From contig JAQGBZ010000239.1 of assembly GCA_034687125.1 (NCBI GenBank), forward strand, positions 34,070 through 98,069: DNA of 64,000 nt. Direction: 5' to 3'. A program made the translations under genes and the position numbers. This document shows positions 384 to 53,600 of the stretch, piece by piece; positions within the stretch are counted from its first letter, which is position 1, and the number at the start of each line of letters is the position of its first letter. The DNA comes from Neelides folsomi (Eukaryota > Arthropoda > Collembola > Neelipleona > Neelidae). The notes under the pieces were generated by a model. That model saw only the letters and a list, made by a program, of their open reading frames with translations, ran no database searches and was not told the origin of the DNA.

Positions 384-1717
384 ATGGGCGATAAAGCAGT
401 TTGCACAACCAAAATCGGTCCAGGACCTGCCGGAGTGAATCTCCCAACTCTTGTCGGCTTCAATGGACACGACTCGACCAAGATGAGACTTCCAGCCTAC
501 AGCATGAGACTCGCACTCGGTTCGTCTCTCAACTGTCAAGGAGGATGCAAAAACACACCTGGGCCCAAATACACGATTCCTTACGGTCAAAAGGCAAACG
601 GAACTTCCATCGGCGTCGCCTACACATTGAGAAGCAAACATAAGAACATAGCTTGTGGTAATAAATTAAACGTCATGAATTCATGAATTACAAAAACAGC
701 AATATTACAATGAATAAATTATTAAATAATGTTATTTATCAATTATGAAGTGAGTAATTTAATAAATTGAAATTTCCAGATCCCGGATGTATTGGACCTG
801 GACCTGGTAAATACTCTTGGGACATCAATCAAAATAGGAACAAAGCTCCTTTGTGGTCACTTCGCGCTCGACTTGAAGGCAGAGGAGCATGGTCGCTTGG
901 ACCAGGACCAAAGTACATGCTTCCATCCCTCATTGGCCCAAAAGTCCCCAACAAACTGTCTCTTCCGGAATACTCAATGTAAGCAATAGTTAAAGTCATT
1001 TGAATCCATTTGGTTAGATTTAAATTACCAATTTGGTTAGGGGGATGAGATGGAAAAATTGCTACCGGGCCATGAGCCCAAACACCACTTTGGCCCCACC
1101 ATGCGAATTCCAGTGCTAGGATTCAATGAATAATTTTAAACTCCTTTTACTTGTCACGTTTAGTCTAATTCATTTAATCAAAGATCGATTAATTCAAAAT
1201 TCACCGTATAAATTCTATAATGATTAGGCCTTCAAAATTGTTTCTAAACAAATAATCCGAATAAAATACGATTTAATCACATTAGGATTTTCTTTCTATT
1301 TTTCTCGTACTATAAGATCTTATAATAAATTATTTTTAAAGGTTATTGTGTAGATCTCGGTTAATTATATTTCAGTTAAGGATGAAGCTTTAATTAATTA
1401 AATTGTTTTGAATGGAAAGGACTGGACGCGGTAAAGGAGACGGATTCAATTCCTACCCTGGACCCAAATACGACATTGGCCGTCCAGATCTGGTGAAGAA
1501 CAAAGCTGGAGCTTACAGCATGTTGGGCCGTCCGAAATGTCTTGGCTGCGAACCTCATTGTGGTGGACCAGGACCAGCAAACTACGACATTGAGCCAGCA
1601 AAATCAAGAGTCTTCCGCCACCCGCCCAAGTACTCAATGGGAATTAAACATACAGAATGTGCTGGAATTTACAGGACAAAATACGACGAATCTGAAGCAC
1701 TTCCCCCAACTTGTTAA
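384..1717 (+). CDS. ODF3/CIMAP-type SHIPPO-repeat protein
   Basis: Three coding exons, 384-657, 780-978 and 1420-1717, join in phase (GT-AG introns) into 256 aa, close to the usual length of about 254 aa in the ODF3 family. The protein carries six Pro-Gly-Pro repeats of the form GPGPxxY (for example GPGPGKY, TPGPKY, YPGPKY, GPGPANY), each followed some residues later by a YSM-type motif (AYSM, EYSM, KYSM). That spacing defines the SHIPPO repeat. Family members decorate the microtubules or outer dense fibres of sperm tails and cilia, so a role in the sperm flagellum is inferred. The join 978/1420 is supported because it recreates YSMTGR, a family motif. The start is the first ATG of the open frame, with a stop just upstream. 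No catalytic domain is expected. Confidence 0.85.
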
Positions 1718-15300: not shown

Positions 15301-18300
15301 TTGTAATAAATTTACTTCAGGTTCAGGATTTCCTACGATGATACATTCTAAAAGGAATCCATCTCCTTCTTTGACAATAGTGTTCCTCAGTGGTGATTGT
15401 ATTTTTGGCCTGCTCACTTCCAGATCCGACTTTTCAAAGTCAGAGTCAGAGGTTTCATTGGGGAGTCGACCCTATTTCATTCATATATCCAAAATTAATA
15501 ATAATGAAATGCGTGGGAGATGAAAGGCCTTCACCTTGACGGTGAGCGTTGAGAATGAGGAGACTTCTCCTGCCGCGTTCCTGGCAATGAGTCTGTAACT
15601 CCCAGCGTGCTTTGGAAACGCCTCTTTGATCGTCAACGAGGGGGCGGAGATGTTCAAAGATTTCTGAAAATAGACATTTTAAAGAAAGGTCACGGGGAGA
15701 GGCGGAAATTACTTCGACCCCTGGGGAAAACTCAATCCGACGATCATCGTGGAACCACTCGATTGAACTTGGATTTCCTCCCAATTCGCATAACAAAACG
15801 ACTTTCTCCCCCGCTCGGGCCATCACATTGCATAAGGGAACGACAACAAAGGGACGTTCCACTTCCAATACTGAAAATATACATAAAACAGTTAAACCTC
15901 AACACAGAAAAATGAAAAAAACTGAAACATGTCAAATCAGGTCAAATGGAAATATTGGGAAATGATTATTATATGTATAACCTTCAACAGTAACAGTCGA
16001 ATAGGTTTCATCAGCACCAAGTCGGTTCACAGCCCTACAGGCATAGTCACCCTTATGGGTCAAATTCACATCATCGAAATTCACAATACATTTTCCATTA
16101 TTGAAGGTAATGACGTAGTCAGGGGAGTCGTCGATGGAATATCCGTCTCGGAACCAAAAGACTGTCGGGAGTGGATTTCCACTCACAAAACACTCGAGCC
16201 GATTTCCTCTGGACGCCTCTTTGAACGTGACATTCGGCGGAAGTTTGGACTCAAAATGAGGCGGAGAGAGGTTTGACTGAGACTCAGCGACCACGAGCTT
16301 CCCGCTCGTCTCCGCCATCCCTCCTTCATTCTCAGCCCGACAAGTAAATATACTTGAGTCGGGCATAAAGGTCTCTTCGATGGTTAAAGAACAAATAGAC
16401 CCGTCGAATTCGGTCTTGTAATCAGAAATCCCCTGGATTTCCATTCCGTCCTTCAGCCATGAGATTTTTGGTTTCGGAACTCCAACAACCCTTTGAATTT
16501 TTAAATTTTGTTTATTTATGCCGAATCATGATTTTAATATTATACAAGTTTTGTTCATTTCGAAAATTATCATTTCAGTTTGTATCATTCAATACTTGAA
16601 CATTACTTTTAAATGTTGAATTACATTACAAAGAGATTTAAATGGAAATTGATGAGCTGTAAGAATTAAACACGTACTTGCATTGAAGTGAAAGTCTTTG
16701 ACCTTCCGTAATTGCCACATCATTTAATGGTGTTACAAAGGCGGGTGCGATGGTGCCATCAACGATTGTTAAAACCTCTTGGATCGTTTCTGTTGACTCT
16801 TCCGCTTGGGTGGAAGCCTCTGAACTTTTCTCCACTGTTTGAGTATTCACATCTCTGTCTATTTTGACGCTCGGCGTGACTTCAATTGCTTCAAATTGAG
16901 TTTCTTTCTCCACCAATTGACGACTTGGGCTGATGCTGGGTGTGAGGACTCGAGTTAATTTGCATTCACCAGCCAATACCTTAAATTGATTTAAAACAAA
17001 GTAAGGAATGAATGAATGATTAGTGATCGATTAAGTAAGTACAGGACTTACAAACAACTGAAATAGTAAAATTTTAATTAACATTATTTAAAGTTATTTA
17101 ATTTTTATCTATGGCTTAATATTTTATACATATAATGTATTAAAACAAATATTCTACAATTGCGATATTTTTGCAATTGATTAAATAGCGAATTTATCTT
17201 AAAGAGTGATGATAAGCTAAAGGGTTTATGGTTTTCTCATTAGCTCCAATTATTCAGATTGAAGCGAATAAAGGATAAGCTTCTAACTACGTCTAACATT
17301 CATGACTAATATGAAACAGAATGAAATAAAACGACTCTGTGTGAGATGAAAATCCCTCAAGCTCATTAAAATCCTTTTCCTGAATCCCAACACAACTTTC
17401 TTCCCATATAACGCCAAAGGAATTAATGTAGTGATAATGAATTGGGTTTACCGTAGACGGAATTCCTTCTTCCACTTTCACACGTTCTTCCATGAGAATT
17501 TCTGGTTCTCCGGTCGTAATACTCTCTGTGATTTCCAAAATTGGGAACTTGGCTTCTTCTGGTTGAGGCACGAGAAGGTTGGCCGAGACGTCTTTCAATT
17601 CCTGGATCATTCTCGAATTCTCGCCCCGAATCATCTCTTCATTCGTCTTCGACTTCTCCTCCCCTATGGCAAGACGATCAAATTTATACTCATTGAACAT
17701 ACAAATTTATGGTTGAACTGATTTATTTTAAATATGATTTAGGAATTATTAAGATGGTGTAAATGAAGATTTAAACCACAAGCATATATTTCATAATTAG
17801 ATTTTGTTCGGTTCACATCCTGAGTTGATTTGAATGTCGTAACATACCATAAAGTTGGGAAGAAATTTGGGCCACTCTTTTGATTCTCTCTATTTGCAGA
17901 TCCTCGCCTTTTGAGAGAAACTCCAAAATTTCATTTTGGAGCAGAAGGGCATTTTGACTTTTTCCTCGCTTCTTCACTTCCATTCCCTCTTTAGCCAAAC
18001 TGAGTCCTTCTTCGAGCCACCCACGGGCCTAGGAAAATATGTTTGATGTGAGAGAGGGAAAAAGAGGTAATGTAATCGCCCGTGTTTATCGGAAAGAAAT
18101 TGACTAGATGAGAAAAGGAAATTGAGGAAGCGGAGGACTCACGTCATTAGACAAAGTGAAATATGTTAGCGTGAGATCAATAACTCTTCGACGCTCCTTC
18201 GTCTGCTGTTCTAAACTGGAAAATCGCGACTCGAGTTCAAACTTTTTCTCCAGGATGTCTTCGTCTCCTTTGGCCTCTTTAGCAGCTTCAACAAACTCCT

Positions 18301-21300
18301 CGATTTTCTCTCTAACAGTCTACATAATAATCCTTGCTCAACATTTTCATTTTATTATCTTCACAAGTTTCTATTGTACGTACAAGTCTTGATAACAAAT
18401 TAGTATGTTCATAATGCCAATTAATAATGAAAATAGAAATTTAACGAAAAGTTACAAACAAACCAGAAGGTACTTATAGAGTTAAAACTATTATATAGGT
18501 AAGTAGAGTAAGTACTAAATATAAATGCAGAATATGCACAAAGTAGCTATAAAATATAACTTGTCTTTTGAATCTATTGATAATGGTTAAATAAAGAGAT
18601 TAAAACTGTAAAATAGAAATAGTTACTTATATAGATAAATGTTTTGAACTTCAAATAATAAATAAATAAAAATTATGAGATTATATTAAATTTAATTTCA
18701 TCATTTTTAAGCATTAAATATTTTTAAGATTGTCAATTTAATGTGAATTTTTAAAAACTAACTGTTTGGCTTACAATAATTGCTGTTTTAGCGTTATTAA
18801 AAAGTAATTAAAAATTTATTACCGTAAGGGTTGTTTCGAATCTTGAGAAAGCTTCTGAGATTTCCATCGATGTTCTAAAAGTCTCCCCATACTGACCTCT
18901 GGATTGGGTAAGATGGTTGAGGAGATCTTTAAGTTTGGATGAAATTTGTAGAAAGTCGTGGTTGAGGAGCGAAGCCCTCATGTCATCCAACGTTCCTTTC
19001 TGACTGCGAGAGAATTTGTCCCAACCGGCGGATCTCCCAGCCACGGATCCCAACAGACGGGATTCATCGATTGAAGCTGCCAGCGGAGGTTCCTAAATCA
19101 ATTATATTTTATAAGGCCCCATTCCACTAAACCCATTACCACCTCATTTTATTACATGAATAGAAAATCAAAAAAATCAATTTTCAAAATGGCGATCTCA
19201 CCAATCAAAAAATTCTATTTAATTAATTTAATTCGCATATTTGTTATATATTTATTTGTAGTTTACTGGAAATTTTTGACGCAATATATCAATATGCTCC
19301 TCTTACGTAAAAAATATTTTATATACAAAATTAAATAATGTCATTATGTCATAAAATAAAAAATATCCAAAATTCAAAAGTTAACTCAATAGTTCATAAA
19401 ATAAATAATAGTAATAAATTATATAGTAAAAATAGAGAGAATAGAGATGCGCTAAAAGGAAGGAAAGAGACGAAACGAAGTTTATGCAATTAAAAGATAT
19501 TTTGAGCAAATTCTTGACACTTGAGTCAATGACCAGTCAAAAGAGTGTAAATGGATTTCATAGAATTGGACAGACTCCCAATCGTCGGAGGAGGCAATAA
19601 AAAGTTCATAAATACTAACATAGAAAACTCATGGGATGAGAAGAGTGGGCAGACTCACCGTTTCTTTCATCAGCGCCACGATGTCAATGGCGTAGTCCTC
19701 AGCTGCCTTAAACTCCTGAACCGCCATTTGATGTTCTACGGTATGGGATTTCTCCGCACTGGAAATCTCTTTGAGGGTCAACTTCCCATACATGAAGCTC
19801 TCGTTGATTCTTTCTTCTAACCCACTCAGAGACTCATACAAGTGAACGAGCATCATACAAAGAGTTTCGTAATTCACAATGAAATTACTAACAATTTCAC
19901 ACTCATCTTTCAAATTCTTTCCTTCGTCGATCCCTAAAGAAAAGCATTCATTAATAAAGACAGCTTTTAAGAACTCAGCACAATTGAGCTGAGTTAATAC
20001 AATTTTCCAAAACTTTCTTCAGTAAAAATACATTGGACCAATAAAATTAAAGTAAAAGTCCAAATACTGAAATAATCCTCATCTTTATACGAGTTTCAAT
20101 TTCTCAGAAACCATTTATCTATTCTTTCCATATTAATAATATTGATACATAAGTTGATACATAATACAAGTACAGAGGGTGAAAAGAGAAAAAAACGCTT
20201 TCAAAATTTGCCTTTTAATCTAAATTGGCCGGGAATGGATGTCTTTAACATTCTCACTATGTTGTCCATTTTCTTCGACGACCTTACGGCATCGTCTTTT
20301 CCATGCTTCGAACACCCGCCATGTCCTTTGTAAATCAATCTTATTCCACTCCTGCTTCAAAACTTTCCAAACTCCCGCAATACTTTTGGCTCGTCTATTC
20401 CAAAGACGTTGCTTAATGTACCCAAAACCGAAAAAGTCAAGAGGAGAGATATCAGGCGATTTCATAGGTATTTCGTTATTTGGGATGATTGTAATTCTCA
20501 GTCGTCTCTTTAGATCTGAAGCGTAAGCTTGAGTCTTCTTCCCCGTGTGTGAAGTTGCTTTATCGTGATGGATAAACAACTTCGATAACTCGGCGGGATT
20601 GTAGAGTTTTGGAAGCTCAATTTCAAGTAAAGGCTTAAGTACATTATCGATATAAAAATCCTGGTTCACTTTAGTTTTGACAGGTACCTTAATTAAAGGG
20701 AGTATCCCTCGTCCACATATTGCCCCAACGACCATGAACTGCAACCCAAAGCTTTCTCTTATTGGACTGACTATCTCTTGGACTAACTTCTCTCTGACTA
20801 TAAAAAGATTTGTGAAAAGTCACTACCATCCCTTCCACTTTGGGATCAATTCTTTTACGCCCCATTTTGGCAAATTAATGAATAAATTTGTGTCTCTGAT
20901 AGAATTATACACAATAAACACAATCCCGCCCAAAAATTCCCGCTATGAAGATTATGCATATTAATTAACATTAAGACCACCAGCGTTTTTTTCTCTTTTC
21001 ACCCTGTACATACTTATAATGAACGAACATAAAAGCATAAAATATTTATAAACTGGTTTTGGAACTGTTAATATAATAAGGATGAGGAAAGTGATACATA
21101 AGCACAAAGATAATTAACAAGTTAAACGCATTGAAGCATAATTTTAATAAACTCTTTGAAATTCAAATTGTGAATTGGACCGTTGAAAACGCCAAGGCTT
21201 TCAAACAACTTTTTTCAATGGGGAAATATTCCACAGCCTTCATTAGAATGTGGAAAAAGAATATTTTGAAAGAGGAGAAAGGGAGTAAAGGAAATAATGA

Positions 21301-35962: not shown

Positions 35963-37205
35963 ATGTCAACCAGTGAAGTAGGAGAAGCAAGAATCAGTAG
36001 AGAATGGCTCCGACAAGTTCTAAAGCTCTCTGAAGACTTACCAATTGAAATCGAAGAGGACAGTGAACACGGCTTTGGGTTTCTCAGTAACATGGTGAGG
36101 GTCAAGATCGGGAGCGAAGACAATGAAAGACGTCTCGTTGTTAAACTTCTCCCTCAAGATGATAAAATGAGAGAGCTCACCATTAAAGCAAAATTCCACG
36201 ATATTGAAAATGCATTCTACGAAAGATTCCTTCCTCTCCTTATCAAAAATGTTCCTTCCATTGAACAATTTTTTCCGAAAATTCTTTATGCTAAAATCCA
36301 GGTAAAAATCATAAAAAATTAATCTCATTTAACAGAATAAAAAATGAATCATCGATTATCTTGAAAATCTTAAAATTATGTATTTAATAAAAAATTGACA
36401 GGAAGAGAACAGCTTAGGACCTGCTTTAATAATGGAGGATTTAAAGGTGCTCGGCTATGTCACAACTCCATTCTCATCTCACTTGTCATCCAAAGAGCTC
36501 CAAATTGTCATTACATTCATGGGCGAATTCCACATTGGAAGTTTGTTAGTTGAAGAAAATGAAGGACCGCTTTTGAAGAAATTCCCATTCCTACAAGAAT
36601 GGCTGGGCCCATTTGAAGAATTATCATACAATTGGTTCGAATCTGCATTTTCACTCCTTGACACTTACTTCAATGAGCAAGGATTAGAAGACATCGTGGT
36701 CCAATTGGCCTCGGCATCTTCTCACAGCAGAAAAATCTTCGAAACTGTTATGGTGTCAGGGAAGGAATTTGGTTGTGCAATCCACGGAGATATTTGGTCG
36801 AATAATCTGATGTTTAATGCGAAAGCAAGATCGGTGAAAGTGATTGATTGGCAGTGTTTCGGTTACATTGACCCTTCTTACGATTTAGCCGTTTTCCTCT
36901 TAACGTCACTCTCCATCCATCAGATATCTGAAGAAGGAATCAAAGGATACGTGAAGAATTATTATCAAAATTCTACTCAAATCAGGCAAAAAACAGGGTT
37001 TAAAGTAAAAGAAAGAAGTTGGGAAGAGTTTTATGAATTTTTCAATTCTTATGCTCTTGCCTATGCCTTCATTTGGTTCACACTCTCAGCAGATTCGATT
37101 ATGAGCAGAAGTGAGAATTTAGAAAAGTTTAATCATGTTTACCGGTATATGATCCAAGAAAAAAATATTTGCCAATTTTTACTTAAAATGACTCAAAATA
37201 AATGA
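35963..37205 (+). CDS. EcKinase/CHK-domain small-molecule kinase
   Basis: Two exons, 35963-36301 and 36402-37205, join in phase into 380 aa, slightly short of the 400-430 aa usual in the family. The fold is the aminoglycoside-phosphotransferase type. LVVKLLP near residue 55 holds the likely ATP-site Lys. MEDL at about 124 is typical of CHK proteins. The catalytic loop HGDIWSNNLMF starts at His241 (catalytic Asp243), and KVIDWQ contains the Mg-binding Asp262. Insect relatives (EcKinase family, CHKov, DUF227) phosphorylate ecdysteroids or other small hydroxylated compounds; the substrate here cannot be told. It lies 0.6 kb downstream of TGFBRAP1 on the same strand, with no functional link apparent. 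AATAAA motifs occur directly after the stop. Confidence 0.88.
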
Positions 37206-44680: not shown

Positions 44681-47600
44681 TTACTGGACAATGATGTGAG
44701 GGGCGGAGAGGAGCACCGCCACTGTAGCAATGATCGTGAATGATGTGAAAACGAAGAGGCAAATTCGGTCAACGACCATGGCAGCAAATTTCCAATCTCC
44801 CACGACCTCCTGATCCTCCTCGGCTTTCCGCATCCGAGTGGTGATGAAGCGGAGTTCACGGAGAATGGATTGAAGGTCCCGTTGAGCCATGGCACAGGGC
44901 GAAGACACGTCCGCGTCCATCCGCAGATAGGAAGTAGACATCCTCACGTCGTCGTCCATGTCCAGGACATTGGCAAGGAGGGACTTTGAGGAACGGTTGC
45001 GAATATTCGCCATTGCCTTCGCCTCCTGGTCTCTTCGCAAACTTTTCCGGGTTATCTTCTTACCCGGGCGGTTCATGCGAAGAATCCACGGAAGCCACCG
45101 AAGAAACAATGTCTTCACCTTTATCCAAATACTTTTCAATTAATTCCATAAATATTAAATTATTCTTCACTTCCTTATTACAACTTATTTAAAGATAAAA
45201 TTATAATCCTTAGTTAGCACATTGATAAAGACGTAGTTTTGATGTAAATATTTTCCTTTAAAAGTTTTAGATTGATAAATGAAAATTTTAAAATTAAATT
45301 CATTATTTGAATTAGGTATGTAAATAATGATAAGGTATCGGTAAACCAATATTAAACTTTCAAGAAATTGTCTGTTGCTTTTCACAATGATAAAATAAAG
45401 TTAAATGATCAACAATCTAATGGTTTCTTTTCTTTTGGATCTATTGAGTTGGATTGGAAAATGGCGGATTTAATTGGAAGCGGATCTCGAATGAACTTAA
45501 TTTAGAAAGATAAGTAATTTGTGGGAGAGGATTTTAATGAATAAGACTTTCATCATTACAAATCGATCCAACTGAGGAGGAGAGGCATTAATTATGAAGA
45601 ACACAATTTACATAGTAGAGTTCCACTCAAGTTGAATCCGAAGAAGTGAATTGCCTGGTCTTTGTTCTCAGCCTAGGAGGGGAATGTTAACCCAGTGGCC
45701 TCAAATGTGAATCTCAATGACCAGGAAGGCTCTTTCAGGCTCCTGTGACGGATAGATTCCTCTCCACCACACGAACACATTTTTCGCAACGTGGGCTCAT
45801 TTGAATAATGGGATTCCCCAAGTGAACTCTTCCTAATGGACTCACATGTAAATAGAGTCGAGGAGAAAACCTTCTCCGATTGCATTACATTCACTTCCAG
45901 ACCCAATTTCCCCTACTTGAAAGTAATATTAGCCATTAGAATAGGAAACGTGCTCTCACGAGAACTCCACACACTTTTCAAATGAAACTCAATACCCCTC
46001 CAAATCTCATTTACATCCTTTAATTTCTCAAGAGCTCCTTCTCCCTCATAAAAGACATTTTATATTTCTCCTCAAATATTAATTAAACATATTTCCCTCT
46101 CTCTGATCTGAGAAATTGAAGGTGAGTTTGTTGGGGAGAGAGAAAGTCTTCCCATTAACTCTCCTCATATTTATGGAGAGAAATGTCTTTAAACGACGAG
46201 TTTCATCTCCACGGTGGTTTCTCATAAATGAAGCATGAGGAAAATTTAGTCCTTTTATCTCCAACTTCCCAACTTTGCAATTAATTCTCATATCAAATGA
46301 ACGATTGGGATTTACTACCACTCAAATCCCCCGTATAAAAGACGTTGAGGAGGAGATAGGTAATTGAACTCCCATTCTTACTTTATAACTCTCCGCACGA
46401 AAGTCCTCAACGAGTCCATAAAGGAACTTTGAACGCATTGACATCCCCCACCAATGGCCATAGCCTATAAAAGTGTCAATATGCAATGATTACCCATGGC
46501 GGCATTTCGTGCATGTTGGCAGTCCTATGATGATAATTGAGTACGACGACGGTGAGGACGACAGAAGAGGCGACCATGAACATGATACAGTTGAAGTACG
46601 TTCCTAATCATAATAAAATCAATTAACAAAAGGCCCTTCCCCACCCTTCATCAAAACATTCCACAGGAAGCAAAGAGAGAGACAACAACAAGGAAGAGCA
46701 AGTCAACCCAACATTAAGATACATATAATTAATGTATTTAGAAACAGGCAGAAGGAAGAGACAGAAATTCCATGCTGTTGTATTTACAGTAATAAAAAAT
46801 GTATTAAAGCGGAATTCATTTGGCTGTTCACAAAAGAAGCGATGATGCGAGTTGGAAAATTATCAATCTCATTATTATTCCGTTCAGAGGACCGTTTTTT
46901 AATTACTCACAACTGGGGCTGAGGGAAAAAAAGAAAGGAGGATGATAAAAGGAAAGTGGAGAAAAAAGTTTGGCTCGTATTTTTGTTTAAATAATACGTA
47001 TCCTCTCCACTTCACTTCTCCACTTTTCAAAATGTTTAATTAAAAGGAGAAAAGTTACGTGTGTCTATACATAGTAATGTGAATGTCCTGAGATTTCATA
47101 TTGGGCCTACAATGAATGTACACTACGAGGTTTTACATGGCTTAATTCCACTTTTTCCACTTTGAAGAGGAAAAAGTTTAAATCAACTCTATGTTAAGTT
47201 ATCTCATATGCAGATAAGTGATATATTAAAGAGTCTTCTACTACAAGTTAGTACATAAGATACGTTATTAACGTAATGCCCACACACACTAGTTGAAAAG
47301 CGATTCCCAATTATTCAAAGAAAACTTTTCAAAACTAAGGGGAAACTTTGTTGAAAACACTCGAGGAAAAAACGGAGTGCAAAAAGCTGGAAAAACAGTG
47401 CGTGGTGAAATTTCACGCAAAGGGAAATTTTGCAAAATTCAAAAAGCCGCGTCGACGGAAATTCAAAATCTAAAATGGGGGCCAGACAGGACAAAGACGG
47501 AAGTTCTCTGCAACCGTTTGTTGGGTCGGATGGGTGAGCAAAATGCAATTAATGTCTTTTGGACACTAGGAAGTTTACAAAAGTACGTGAGTTCTACGTG

Positions 47601-50600
47601 GCTCACAAAACAATCAAAATACAATCGATTAATCTTATGGACAAAAACACGTCTGTGAGTGCGAAACACTAAAATCACTCCGACGAGTTGGTCTGTCGTC
47701 TTAAAAATTGGTAAAATTGGAAAAACAATGAAGAAATCAAAAAATTCTTCATTTGAGTCATAAAAGAAGAAAAGTTCATGTTCGCTTACGGAAATCCGCC
47801 ATGGTTTAAAAACACGCTCACTCACCATTCAAAACTCTGTTGGATCTCCCAAAAACTCAAAGGTTCAATTATTGGTCAATGTAAACAAATATGTTCCTCT
47901 ATTGTATTCATTTGTATTATCCTTAATTACCTAATTAATTAATATGTATAGGTATGTAATCTATGTAGTCGATAAGTAAATACATCATGTAATTATTTAC
48001 AGCATTTCTACAAAATTGTTTGTACAAATAATGTATGTACATACACTTTGATTCGGATAAATTTATTAAAAGTGCTCTTAAAGTAATTAAAATGAATTCA
48101 TTATATTAAATGCAGGTGTATTTACATTATAATAATAAAAGTGATATAATATTAATTAGGCAAGTATAATTAATTAAGGTATAGTAAAAACCTTTTCAGC
48201 TATCATTCGGGATAATTAGTCATAAATAATATTTACATTTAAGACATGTTAATTACATATTATATTAGGTCAAATGGCGATTGTCAAATCGTAAAATTGA
48301 AAAATGTTTTTAGAGAAAAGTCGCGAAAGCCTCAAAAAAGAGGACGAAGATGAAAATTCAAAATAGCAAAATGCTATATCATTTGTAAATATTAAAAAAT
48401 TGATTTGAGAAAGTGTTAGTCATTTAATAAAGCTTACTCAATTTACACGCGAGAACCTCAATGAAATAGAATTAAAATTGATCGACAATAAATTGAAAAC
48501 GAAGACGAGTTGAAGTACCTAAGAGGGGAATTGCATCTGAGGTTTTGGGAAGCAAATCAGCGACCAACATCGAAAATACAGTTAAAGATAGCAATATCGT
48601 TACACCTGGAAATCATATATGAAAATCATTTTGTAAAACTTTTCCTTGAATGTTGACATTTTCCCTCCTTGACTCCTTCCCTGGGCATAAGGAGCCAAGG
48701 AGTTTGGAATTCAAATCCCGCCTAGTTATACCATGTCATAAAGTAATTAGTTGAAACAAGACTTACATAATAAATTTCATTACATCGTGTTTCAAGTTGC
48801 GAGAGATCTTTCATGAGGTCATTTCACCAGGAGATTTGGCAAATCTCTTCCAAGGAACCATTAAACTTCCTCCCCAACGAACTTAAATTTCCATCTTTCT
48901 CCAACTTTATAATTCATTATAGATAATAATTTCGCAGGTCTGTGCAAAGTTAACTTTCTCTCTCAACTTCCCCATTTGTCATCATAAGAGGAAAATTTCC
49001 ATCCAGTGCCCTTTTCATCTCGTAGCCCTCATTACGAATGAGAAGTTTTCTCGCGACTAATAACACTTTATTTTTAAACTAACTTACTTAACATGTATCA
49101 ATAGTCCTTGTGAGTTGTTGGTCTTAACTTTTTTTTAAAATTATATTAATAGCCATAAGATCTTGTTATTCCAAATGAACGGAGATAAGTTAATTGTGTA
49201 GTTAGTAGAGAAAGTACATTTAAAGACTCACATAGAAGGCTGTAAAGAAAGGATAGAGGGAAACAGCTGAGCCAATGAGCAAAGGCACGCCCACAGTTCA
49301 AATCAAAATCAGAATGTCGATTGGGAGGAGAAAAGAAGAGACAGAGAAGAAGATACATTTAAAATGTATTGATGAAAGAGGAGGTAATAGAATTAAACTA
49401 TGCGGAAAAGGGCTCTGAGCGTAATACCTAACAGCGGAATGGCGTCAGAGACTTGAGGAAGTGTTTCCGCAACCAAATTGAGAAATACCGTTAATGACAG
49501 CAGTATCGTAACTCCTAAAGAGAAATGATCGGATCTCAAATAAATTATTAAGATAAGACTTATTCTTTTTTCATTCACTCTCTTCACAATCCCGCAATGA
49601 CGAATCCCTTTTTTGATCATTTTTGACCAAGACCATCTCCCATGACTCTTCCGGGGAGTAATGGGACAAATAATTAAGAGTCGAGACCAACGGGCAAGGC
49701 TTGCTAAGCCCTTTCGGATGCTGTTTGACTCTCAAGTCTTTTACCGATAAGTGGGACAGCGTCGGACGTGGAAGGCATTTTTTCGGCGACTATGTTGAGA
49801 AAGACGGTAAGCGAGAGCAATATGGTTACCCCTAAGAAAATCTCATGTTAATTTCCCCCAATCCCCGACCTTCTCCTTCCCATCAAATAACGTTGAGTGA
49901 GAAGTAAACACTTCGACCGGATGGCCTTACCGAGAGTCAGTTTTTCTCCAGAGTCGGGTGGCAGAGTGAATCCCAGGAGGGCCATCGAAGAGATGAGGAC
50001 GCAAGGGACGATGAGGTTGAAAAAGTAATACAGTGTCCGTCTCCGGATGTGAATCGTGTAAGTGACATCGATGAACGGTTCAGGACAGCAGGCGTAAGTG
50101 ATCACGTGTCGTTCCCCCGGCATTCCTTCAAGATTGAAACTCAATTACAAAATCTGGATCTTTTTAACCTCAATATAAGTCAATAACTCACTCATATGTC
50201 GTAGATAATGAAAAAATGATGTGATTTAAAATTTGTATTGTAATAATATATAGAGAAAATGTAATTACTCTCTATATTATTTAATATTTAATATGTTGAA
50301 TCATATCGTTATAAGGTTGAACGTTCACATAAATAATCAGCCTTTTCTAAATCGCTCCCTAATTCACATCAACCAGTTAAGAAAAATGTCGCGTATTATA
50401 GCCATTTAATAAATTTTTAACTCCTACTAAATTCTTAAATAAGTATGACCAAGTGATGGATCATAGAAGATTAACGAAAGCATTAAAGTGATCTATGAGG
50501 AAAGTTGAAGACATTCACCAATAAGCTCCCATTCTCCATTGGTAATGAAACTGGACAAGTCCCCGCCAAGATCATCCTTCATGGCTAGGTCGAGCTGAGA

Positions 50601-53600
50601 GAGAAAATGAATTACGATCTGATTTACAGTCGATTGATATCTGATATCCAACCTGGAATCCATCGTAGGTCCAACTCCCAAACTTCATATCACACTTTTG
50701 ATCGTCGAAGGGGAACCAAGTGATGTCGATCTTGCACGTGCTCTTGAAGATCCCAGGGGGAATGTACGTGCAGCTCCCGTTGTTCCTCAACACGATGTTC
50801 GTGTGAAACGTTCCATCGAACAGCTCGTCCGCACTGAAATGCAGAAATAAGAGGAAATATTACAAACACCTGTCACAGAGAAAAGGGAAATTCATTCAAG
50901 ATATTCAAGAGACATTCAGACATTTCCATACAATACATTACATTTTTTTACATTACCCTTCCGCTCTTTCAATATTTAAAGAGCAAGCAAAGAGAAAGGG
51001 TTTGTTCAAATCCTGTTGGTAAATTCCCTCATTGTGTATTCAATATGTGTGGATTGAGAAGTCGAAATTGTAATGAAGTTATTCATAACTTTAAATCATG
51101 TGCTTTACATTCCTAATATTCTAATCCTTTTGACTTTCCTCTGAGGTGAACGGGAATAATTAAACCTGACAAGGGCCGCATGTGAAATTCGAACGTAATT
51201 AATCAAAAGGCCCATTCCACCTAATTCCCATACTGATGTTTCATTAGTACATGAGTAATTGATTGTCCAATAGATCAGTGTCAATCTGTCATCAAAATGT
51301 TTGACTACAAATCCCACATCGAATTACACACCTAACGACTATACCTAAGGTTCTAAAACGATAATAAGAAATAGTTTGTGAAGGCATAAATTCTTCATCT
51401 GCCTCATCGATTCCTCGAAGGAGTGGAGAGGGGCAAAGGAAGGTGAAAGTGTAAAAGGAGATTTTTGTTAATTTTCTCCACCTCATAATTTATGGTTGGT
51501 CGGAGGAGGATTTATTGTCAGCCTCATTTACCTTCCTCATAAATGTGGAAGGTTTTGAGGAGGCGGAAGGGACGTAAATCATGAGTAATTTTTACGACCT
51601 CCTCCTCTTCCTGTTGCTCGACAAAGACATTTTCTGAAGGGCGTGAAAGTAAAGCCAAGGGAGACCCGGGGGATTCTCCGAATCCCAAATTCAGAGGAAA
51701 AACACTTTTTTGGAGATCCGCCAGCTAAAGGGACACTACCACATCATGGCCTTTTAATTTATGGTCAACACGTACACCACCGACCTGTAGAGGAAATTCA
51801 CCAATAATAAAATAGCAATATTGGGGAGCTTAATACGGAAATCTCATCGGATCTCTCCTCCTATTACACAACAGCTTTTCCCTCCTTCATATTGCCTTTT
51901 TTAATGTTCCGACTTGCCTTCCGCCCTTTTCCGCCTCAACTTTTCATCCCCAGATGTTTATGCGTAAAGTTCGTTCACCTCTAAAGCGGTTAAATTATAA
52001 ATACTGGTCTAACCTTTGAATGCCAAACTTTTACTCTTATTATTCATTTAGATACTTTTGACATTTTTACGAACTTATTAGAATCCGACGTTTTCAGGTT
52101 GATTAATTTTACGCTTTTGCTCATTCCAAGACGTTTGAAGTGTAGATGTAAAAGTATACTTCAAACATGATTCGAACTACTATTGTAAGTATAAATACGA
52201 TATTATGTATTATTCAAAATATTGTGAATTCATCATAATGGCATATTTTTGAAAAGAATCTATTTGTAAAAAGTCCTTAGGACTATTGTATGTATGAAGA
52301 TAGTAAGATTTAATAATATTTTTGACATTGTTAGATGTGCGGAAGGGGGAAAGTTTTCAAAAGAAAAGAAAGGAAAAGAATAAAATACATACACGGTAGC
52401 TCAAATTTCCAAACTTATCGATCACATTCTGAGCATGAGATTTGTCCCATTACCTATTGTACATGAGGACGTCGGGTCTCCAGAGTTTATTTGGCTGGAT
52501 TCGGACATTATTGACGTTTCCATATGACGATGTGTTCCAAACCAAATTGTAGTCACTCCATTCCTGAAAATAATTAAAATTTTGATATTGAATAAAATCT
52601 TTCACTGACCGAATGTTTAAATTTCATAAATTATATTATAATTAACCGACTTAAATAAATAAAATTAAAGAAACTTACCAAATTGAGCCAAAGGTTAGTT
52701 GTGAGAATTTGGTTCTTTTCATCCTGAAAATATATACAAAAACAATAAGTGAATGGTACAATATTATCACTAATTCAAATACAGAATAGTTTTGAATAAT
52801 CAACACACAATTACTTTTTACTTATAAAACAATTCATTTCACTCTCCAAAGGTCAAAGTATCATAGTAAAATCAATTATTTTACAGTATAGTATCAGTAT
52901 ATGGTAGTGCAAGAAAACGAAATAAATAAAATATATTCGTTTTAAATCTCTTCAAACTCTAATGGCACGAGGTCGAATCGTTCTTTTGTTGAAAGAAACG
53001 AAATACGAGAACAACTTAAGAAAAGAGTGAAAATGAAAGATTAGGAGTTGGAATTCCAAAAAGGCAATCCTTTCCTTTAAATCTCATAAAGTTCAATCAA
53101 CCTGAGCGTTCCTCAATCTCCTTTACGCTCAACATGATGACAGACATGATGATGAGTCAAAGCTCAAAGCTACATTATTTCTTCATCTTCGTTATAATTT
53201 ATTAACGGTTTTAGTTAAATGTCTCATAATTTTCATACCACATTGATGATCTGCATGAGCGTGAGTCCAAATGAGACCTGCAGCGTCTCGTTCTCGTTCG
53301 CGACGGGTCTTTCAAGGACGTTGTAGTCGGCGAAGAGATGGTCGAGGAGCTTTCTCTCGTTCGTTCCGCCCTCCACGCCTACAAAAGTAATTGAAATGTG
53401 AGATTTCAAACCTCGGGTGACAACTCGTCTCATTGAACAAAACAATAAAGCTACACAAGATGAGAAAGGGACTTATAATGAAAAATGTAATTCGAAATGG
53501 TTTTCAAAGAAAACGTGGAAATGGTCCTCCCATACGACTCAACCTTATAAACTTTCAAGGTATTTACCACAGAGTTCATAATGAAAAGTTTGGCAATAAT

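Follow-up and report, generated by a model that had tools for sequence, protein, structure and literature searches.

A putative mutually exclusive exon-8 cluster in an alpha7-like nicotinic acetylcholine receptor gene, and its likeness to the exon-8 copies of an alpha6-type paralogue in a pancrustacean genome

The window, a stretch of 64,000 nucleotides on contig C239 of a genome searched across 75.1 Mb in 840 contigs, carries on its (−) strand a gene for a nicotinic acetylcholine receptor (nAChR) subunit, the exons of which were located by tblastn and joined in a gene model. Exon 2 (53239..53378), whose acceptor was read from the sequence, encodes the start of the ligand-binding domain and is followed by exon 3 (52679..52723, 45 nt), exon 4 (52454..52563, 110 nt, acceptor also read), exon 5 with the Cys-loop (50653..50833), exon 6 (50519..50594), exon 7 (49931..50125), three copies of exon 8, exon 9 with TM3 (46494..46603, 110 nt), and a last exon, exon 10 (44681..45118), which encodes the TM3-TM4 loop, TM4, and the stop and has a weak acceptor and a tentative 5′ end. 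Exon 7 encodes loop C with its vicinal cysteines, TM1, the GEK filter, and the start of TM2; exons 3 and 7 were each found in a single copy, and exon 1, with the signal peptide, was not located. Exons 2 to 10, with the model starting in exon 2 at 53358, give a partial protein of 453 residues in which Pfam recognised the ligand-binding domain (Neur_chan_LBD) at full length and positions 1-232 of the 233 of the membrane domain (Neur_chan_memb). Human alpha7 chains, which have the same two domains, are its best solved-structure relatives (7koo, E 1.3e-149), and no named arthropod nAChR was recognised among the 60 solved-structure matches listed. The sequence is YACCPEP in loop C and GEK at the filter, a combination that we take, as established knowledge, to denote a cation-channel alpha subunit. 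Judged by these traits (both domains, the vicinal cysteines of loop C, GEK before TM2, and human alpha7 as the nearest relative), the window gene is an alpha7-like nAChR subunit gene and probably one of the alpha5/alpha7 type; its exons 9-10 presumably resemble those of insect alpha7.

Between exons 7 and 9 lie three consecutive exons of 87 nt on the (−) strand, namely 8a (49745..49831), 8b (49428..49514), and 8c (48519..48605), each in phase 1 at both ends and each with AG directly before and GT directly after it; an earlier note had placed three phase-1 exons of this length here, and its placement proved exact to the base. The frame is set by one G from exon 7, and in it all three copies are open, with 8a open in one additional frame and the remaining frames of the trio holding one to three stops. 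Each copy encodes 29 residues, an alternative form of the outer part of TM2 and of the TM2-TM3 loop. The copies match one another at E 3e-13 to 9e-11 in tblastn searches of the 64-kb window, in which no fourth copy was found and the next best place scored E 0.11, a gap that makes a chance origin of the trio untenable. Nucleotide identity between the pairs of copies is 63, 59, and 70%, with third codon positions holding most of the differences (21, 24, and 17 of 29 per pair). Synonymous differences per site amount to 0.66-0.84 (Nei-Gojobori) against a dN of 0.18-0.31; therefore, the copies are old and have been kept by purifying selection, and an assembly artefact is not the cause.

Being tandem, homologous, equal in length, in the same phase, and furnished with their own splice sites, the three exons have the anatomy of a mutually exclusive cluster, and such a cluster is the best reading of the locus, with the use of one copy per transcript predicted from gene anatomy. 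Three models with one exon-8 copy each all read through to the same stop. Models with 8a and 8b together or without exon 8 also stay in frame with no internal stop, which bears out the earlier remark that two copies would remain in frame. Alternatively, one copy might be constitutive and the rest dead or rarely used, as might be expected from the accessible part of a comparative study in which 8b alone turned up in silkworm cDNA and three other insects used 8c least (PMC1919356), but all three copies have open frames and splice sites and are under strong purifying selection, which weighs against this, and we consider it very unlikely. Under the preferred reading of exclusive use, a means of enforcing it would be needed, and short introns, U12 sites, nonsense-mediated decay (NMD), and competing RNA structures are the mechanisms named in the part of PMC6071210 available to us. 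Steric hindrance was rejected, the introns between the copies measuring 230 and 822 nt versus 58 nt for the intron between exons 5 and 6 of the same gene model; so was U2/U12 incompatibility, with no donor of the window gene fitting [AG]TATCC, and so was NMD as the enforcer, given the in-frame length of 87 nt and the open double-copy and exon-8-skipping models.

For exclusivity, competition between intron pairings is a candidate explanation with weak support. A pairing search on the (−) strand returned a pyrimidine-rich candidate docking site 60-83 nt upstream of exon 9, within the preceding intron (46663..46686), and two purine-rich candidate selectors, one between 8a and 8b (49574..49596) and one between 8b and 8c (48651..48678). 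In a first pass, docking before exon 9 (−24.0) was reached by 0/15 shuffles and docking after exon 7 by 31/100. The second pass covered five layouts in the window gene, and for each of them the docking intron and the selectors were shuffled 40 times apiece. A docking site before exon 9 gave −23.3 kcal/mol when the selectors lay upstream of 8b and 8c (0/40, 0/40 shuffles), a nearly equal −22.4 when they lay downstream of 8a and 8b (0/40, 3/40), and −17.8 when they lay upstream of all three copies (5/40, 1/40); a docking site after exon 7 gave −17.7 with selectors upstream of 8b and 8c (4/40, 3/40) and −16.4 with selectors downstream of all three (1/40, 15/40). The value of −23.3 was reached by 0/160 random pairs of window stretches, by a small margin over the best random pair at −23.1, and random stretches paired as well with the docking stretch in 15/1000 cases for the 8b site, 7/1000 for the 8c site, and 42/1000 for the 8a site. 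Three docking layouts in the paralogue on contig C21, described below, were unremarkable (15/40 and 21/40, 9/40 and 18/40, and 4/40 and 10/40 shuffles). Pairing of the docking site with the 8a/8b selector would loop out 8b and 8c, and pairing with the 8b/8c selector would loop out 8c alone. Docking and selector splicing is described for Dscam exons 4, 6, 9, and 17 and for 14-3-3zeta, Mhc, and MRP1 in the accessible portion of PMC6071210, and the downstream-intron site here could likewise pair with either selector; unlike Dscam-type docking, the present candidate comes from one genome and carries weak statistics.

In pore numbering, for which we assume that L247 of human alpha7 is 9′, the three copies agree throughout 4′-14′, including T6′, L9′, and V13′, and vary at 15′, 16′, 17′, 20′, 21′, 22′, 24′, 25′, 29′, and 32′, which agrees with the earlier assignment of the variable positions to the channel mouth and the gating loop. 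To our knowledge, human alpha7 has no alternative exon for the TM2/TM2-TM3 segment. The 20′ ring is acidic in every copy (E, E, D), which should preserve selectivity for cations; charge is altered at 21′ (K/T/L) and 24′ (S/Q/K), in the extracellular mouth and the coupling loop. The choice of one exon-8 copy per transcript would hold the inner and middle pore constant and vary the extracellular mouth and the TM2-TM3 coupling loop, and through these it might tune conductance, gating, desensitisation, and drug response.

A TM2-TM3 query found twelve matches in the genome, among them a second gene, on contig C21, whose exons 9-10 presumably resemble those of insect alpha6. This gene has two 45-nt copies of exon 3 (DEKNQILITNTWLNL and DEKNQLLITTIWLKM), two 87-nt copies of exon 8, and two 195-nt copies of exon 7 (locus L039, 8536-8342 and 8090-7896, (−) strand, tblastn) that encode loop C, TM1, and the start of TM2 and are 65% identical in protein, the second reading LPHECGEKLTLG; in the window gene, by contrast, tblastn found exons 3 and 7 once each. 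We know of no report of an exon-7 duplication in insect alpha6. The portion of PMC8505678 available to us tabulates alpha6 alternative splicing for exons 3 and 8 only. The accessible parts of two papers (PMC5111602, PMC1919356) describe a choice between 45-bp exons 3a and 3b in insect alpha6; according to one of them, the pair occurs in most insect alpha6 genes studied and the honeybee alpha6 is without it (PMC1919356). The window gene has the tandem exon 8 of insect-type alpha6 and lacks the 45-nt 3a/3b pair, an absence that is by itself weak evidence against alpha6 because the honeybee gene shares it. The 3a/3b pair in the C21 gene carries the argument: by it, the alpha6-type gene is probably the one on contig C21, and the window gene is probably another member of the group and not the counterpart of insect alpha6. 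The alpha6/alpha7-type label that the earlier note had given the window gene thus stands in its alpha7-like half, with 7koo nearest, and is doubtful in its alpha6 half, given the single exon 3 here and the 3a/3b pair on C21. A second exon-8-like stretch was seen in no other subunit locus among those inspected (30 of 58 membrane-domain matches, about 3 kb each). A third nAChR-like gene lies on the same contig (C21:339195-339605), on the strand of the alpha6-type gene and about 25 kb away from it, and its TM2 segment, LLVSKILPPTS, has K at 20′ where E is usual.

Residue matches between the two genes cut across the gene boundary. Exon 8b shares 26/29 residues with the second C21 copy (dN 0.085) and 24/29 with the first, to which it is closer than to 8a or 8c; 8a shares 25/29 with the first (dN 0.165) and 20/29 with the second, and 8c 21/29 with either. 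Matches within genes are 22, 20, and 23 of 29 for the window and 22 of 29 for C21. A run of 13 residues is common to 8b and the second C21 copy and absent from human alpha7. The exon-8 tree rests on 30 columns with no branch starred, and 8b joins the second C21 copy with a branch support of 80/76 (12 rows) and 68/75 (6 rows) on amino acids, 71/78 on codon positions 1+2, and 46/25 on all nucleotide positions. Exon 8a joins the first C21 copy in the nucleotide trees (68/74 and 87/88); this pair was not recovered in the amino-acid trees and was not rejected there (AU p 0.45, 0.19), and its likeness may reflect that both copies simply keep a human-alpha7-like form.

The a and b copy types thus appear, from these comparisons, to be common to the window gene and its alpha6-type paralogue. 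AU tests, with uncorrected p values throughout, covered six clades in the 12-row amino-acid set and five in the 6-row set. Amino acids rejected both the clade of 8a, 8b, and 8c (p 0.0005, 12 rows; 0.0025, 6 rows) and the clade of the two C21 copies (p 0.0064 and 0.004, respectively); codon positions 1+2 gave p 0.036 for the window clade, the 8b+8c clade was borderline (p 0.054 and 0.061), and the 8a+8b clade was not rejected (p 0.103, 12 rows). These rejections, for both genes, together with the 13-residue run, argue against the two genes having duplicated the exon in tandem independently and converged at a few variable sites, an alternative that we consider unlikely though still the foremost rival: it would accommodate the window clade on all nucleotide positions, where a within-gene origin was not rejected (p 0.176), and it has a precedent in Bombyx alpha8, whose alternative exon 7, in the TM2/TM3 region, is a gain of its own (PMC2045683, in the part available). 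That case also concerns alternatives in the same region and differs in its subunit, its two copies, their identity of 86%, and a duplication that the authors call recent in the same portion of the paper (PMC2045683). The cross-gene pairing would likewise result if the paralogues, once separated, had exchanged the exon by an ancient gene conversion or transfer, but two types would have had to be exchanged, and the cross-gene pairs are saturated at synonymous sites (pS 0.85 and 0.94), so no recent event took place; we regard conversion as quite improbable. Asked whether the arrangement is older or convergent, as the earlier note had put it, we favour the older origin on the amino-acid tests, with the all-nucleotide test leaving the within-gene origin standing. 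Whether the one gene whose duplication gave rise to the alpha6-type and alpha7-type genes already had the a/b switch is, once sampling is taken into account, evenly balanced in our judgement. The composite reading of an alpha7-like gene that uses one exon-8 copy per transcript, varies its channel mouth by that choice, and probably owes its a and b copies to a single duplication before the gene split seems to us very probable.

Insect alpha6 genes likewise have three alternative exons, 8a, 8b, and 8c, for TM2 and the TM2-TM3 loop (PMC1919356; PMC8505678 citing Grauso 2002; both in their accessible parts), unlike which the present trio sits in a gene without the 3a/3b pair. As far as the available text of PMC1919356 goes, fly, flour beetle, and honeybee all make alternative use of the alpha6 exon-8 copies, with the ranking 8b > 8a > 8c, and the duplication behind these copies is placed no more precisely than ahead of the insect orders' radiation some 300 million years ago (Jin 2007). 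The arrangement is of this known insect alpha6 kind, here in what is probably a sister gene, and the evidence that it predates the gene split is moderate. For Drosophila alpha7, the accessible part of PMC8505678 tabulates alternative splicing as 'Not Reported' and mentions in its text that such processing changes occur in alpha7 too. In the open literature, outside which most subscription papers lie, we found no report of exon-8 copies in an alpha7-type arthropod gene and no match to the exon-8 peptide strings. If the a and b types predate the gene split, the channel-mouth switch is older than the gene duplication and no speciality of alpha6; insects would have kept it in alpha6 only and this pancrustacean in both genes, with an exon-7 switch (loop C, TM1) additional in the alpha6-type gene, and the two genes would offer 3 + 8 possible isoforms. 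Insect alpha6 is the spinosad target according to the portion of PMC5111602 at hand. That a second subunit also has alternative channel-mouth segments matters for receptor diversity and for which subunits are comparable between arthropods.

Several further features of the genome and window were recorded. Contig C742 (15,157 bp) is mitochondrial and has tRNA-Leu(UAA) between COX1 and COX2, which is the pancrustacean order, and five consecutive TTAGG units occur 28 times in the genome versus 0 in the control; TTAGG repeats argue against a fly. A six-frame exon search, which is insensitive, gave three weak matches to the odorant-receptor family, the best of which scores higher as a gustatory receptor (57.6 vs 36.4 bits), so these matches give no sign of the odorant receptor set of a winged insect; the odorant-binding family gave two weak matches. 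The mitochondrial gene order and the TTAGG repeats point to a pancrustacean other than a fly, and the host may be a springtail or a branchiopod. Elsewhere in the window, an open stretch at 20223-20819 (−) has no Pfam match and resembles, we presume, a remnant of a Tc1/mariner-type transposase. Pfam recognised tandem I-set immunoglobulin domains at 15935-16525 (−), and more Ig-like open frames were seen by eye on the same strand at about 13.1-17 kb, which suggests a large multi-Ig protein. Pfam also matched an ecdysteroid-kinase-like (EcKL) stretch at 36399-37202 (+) with 78.5 bits and a sperm-tail PG-rich (SHIPPO) repeat at 1412-1714 (+) with 36.1 bits.
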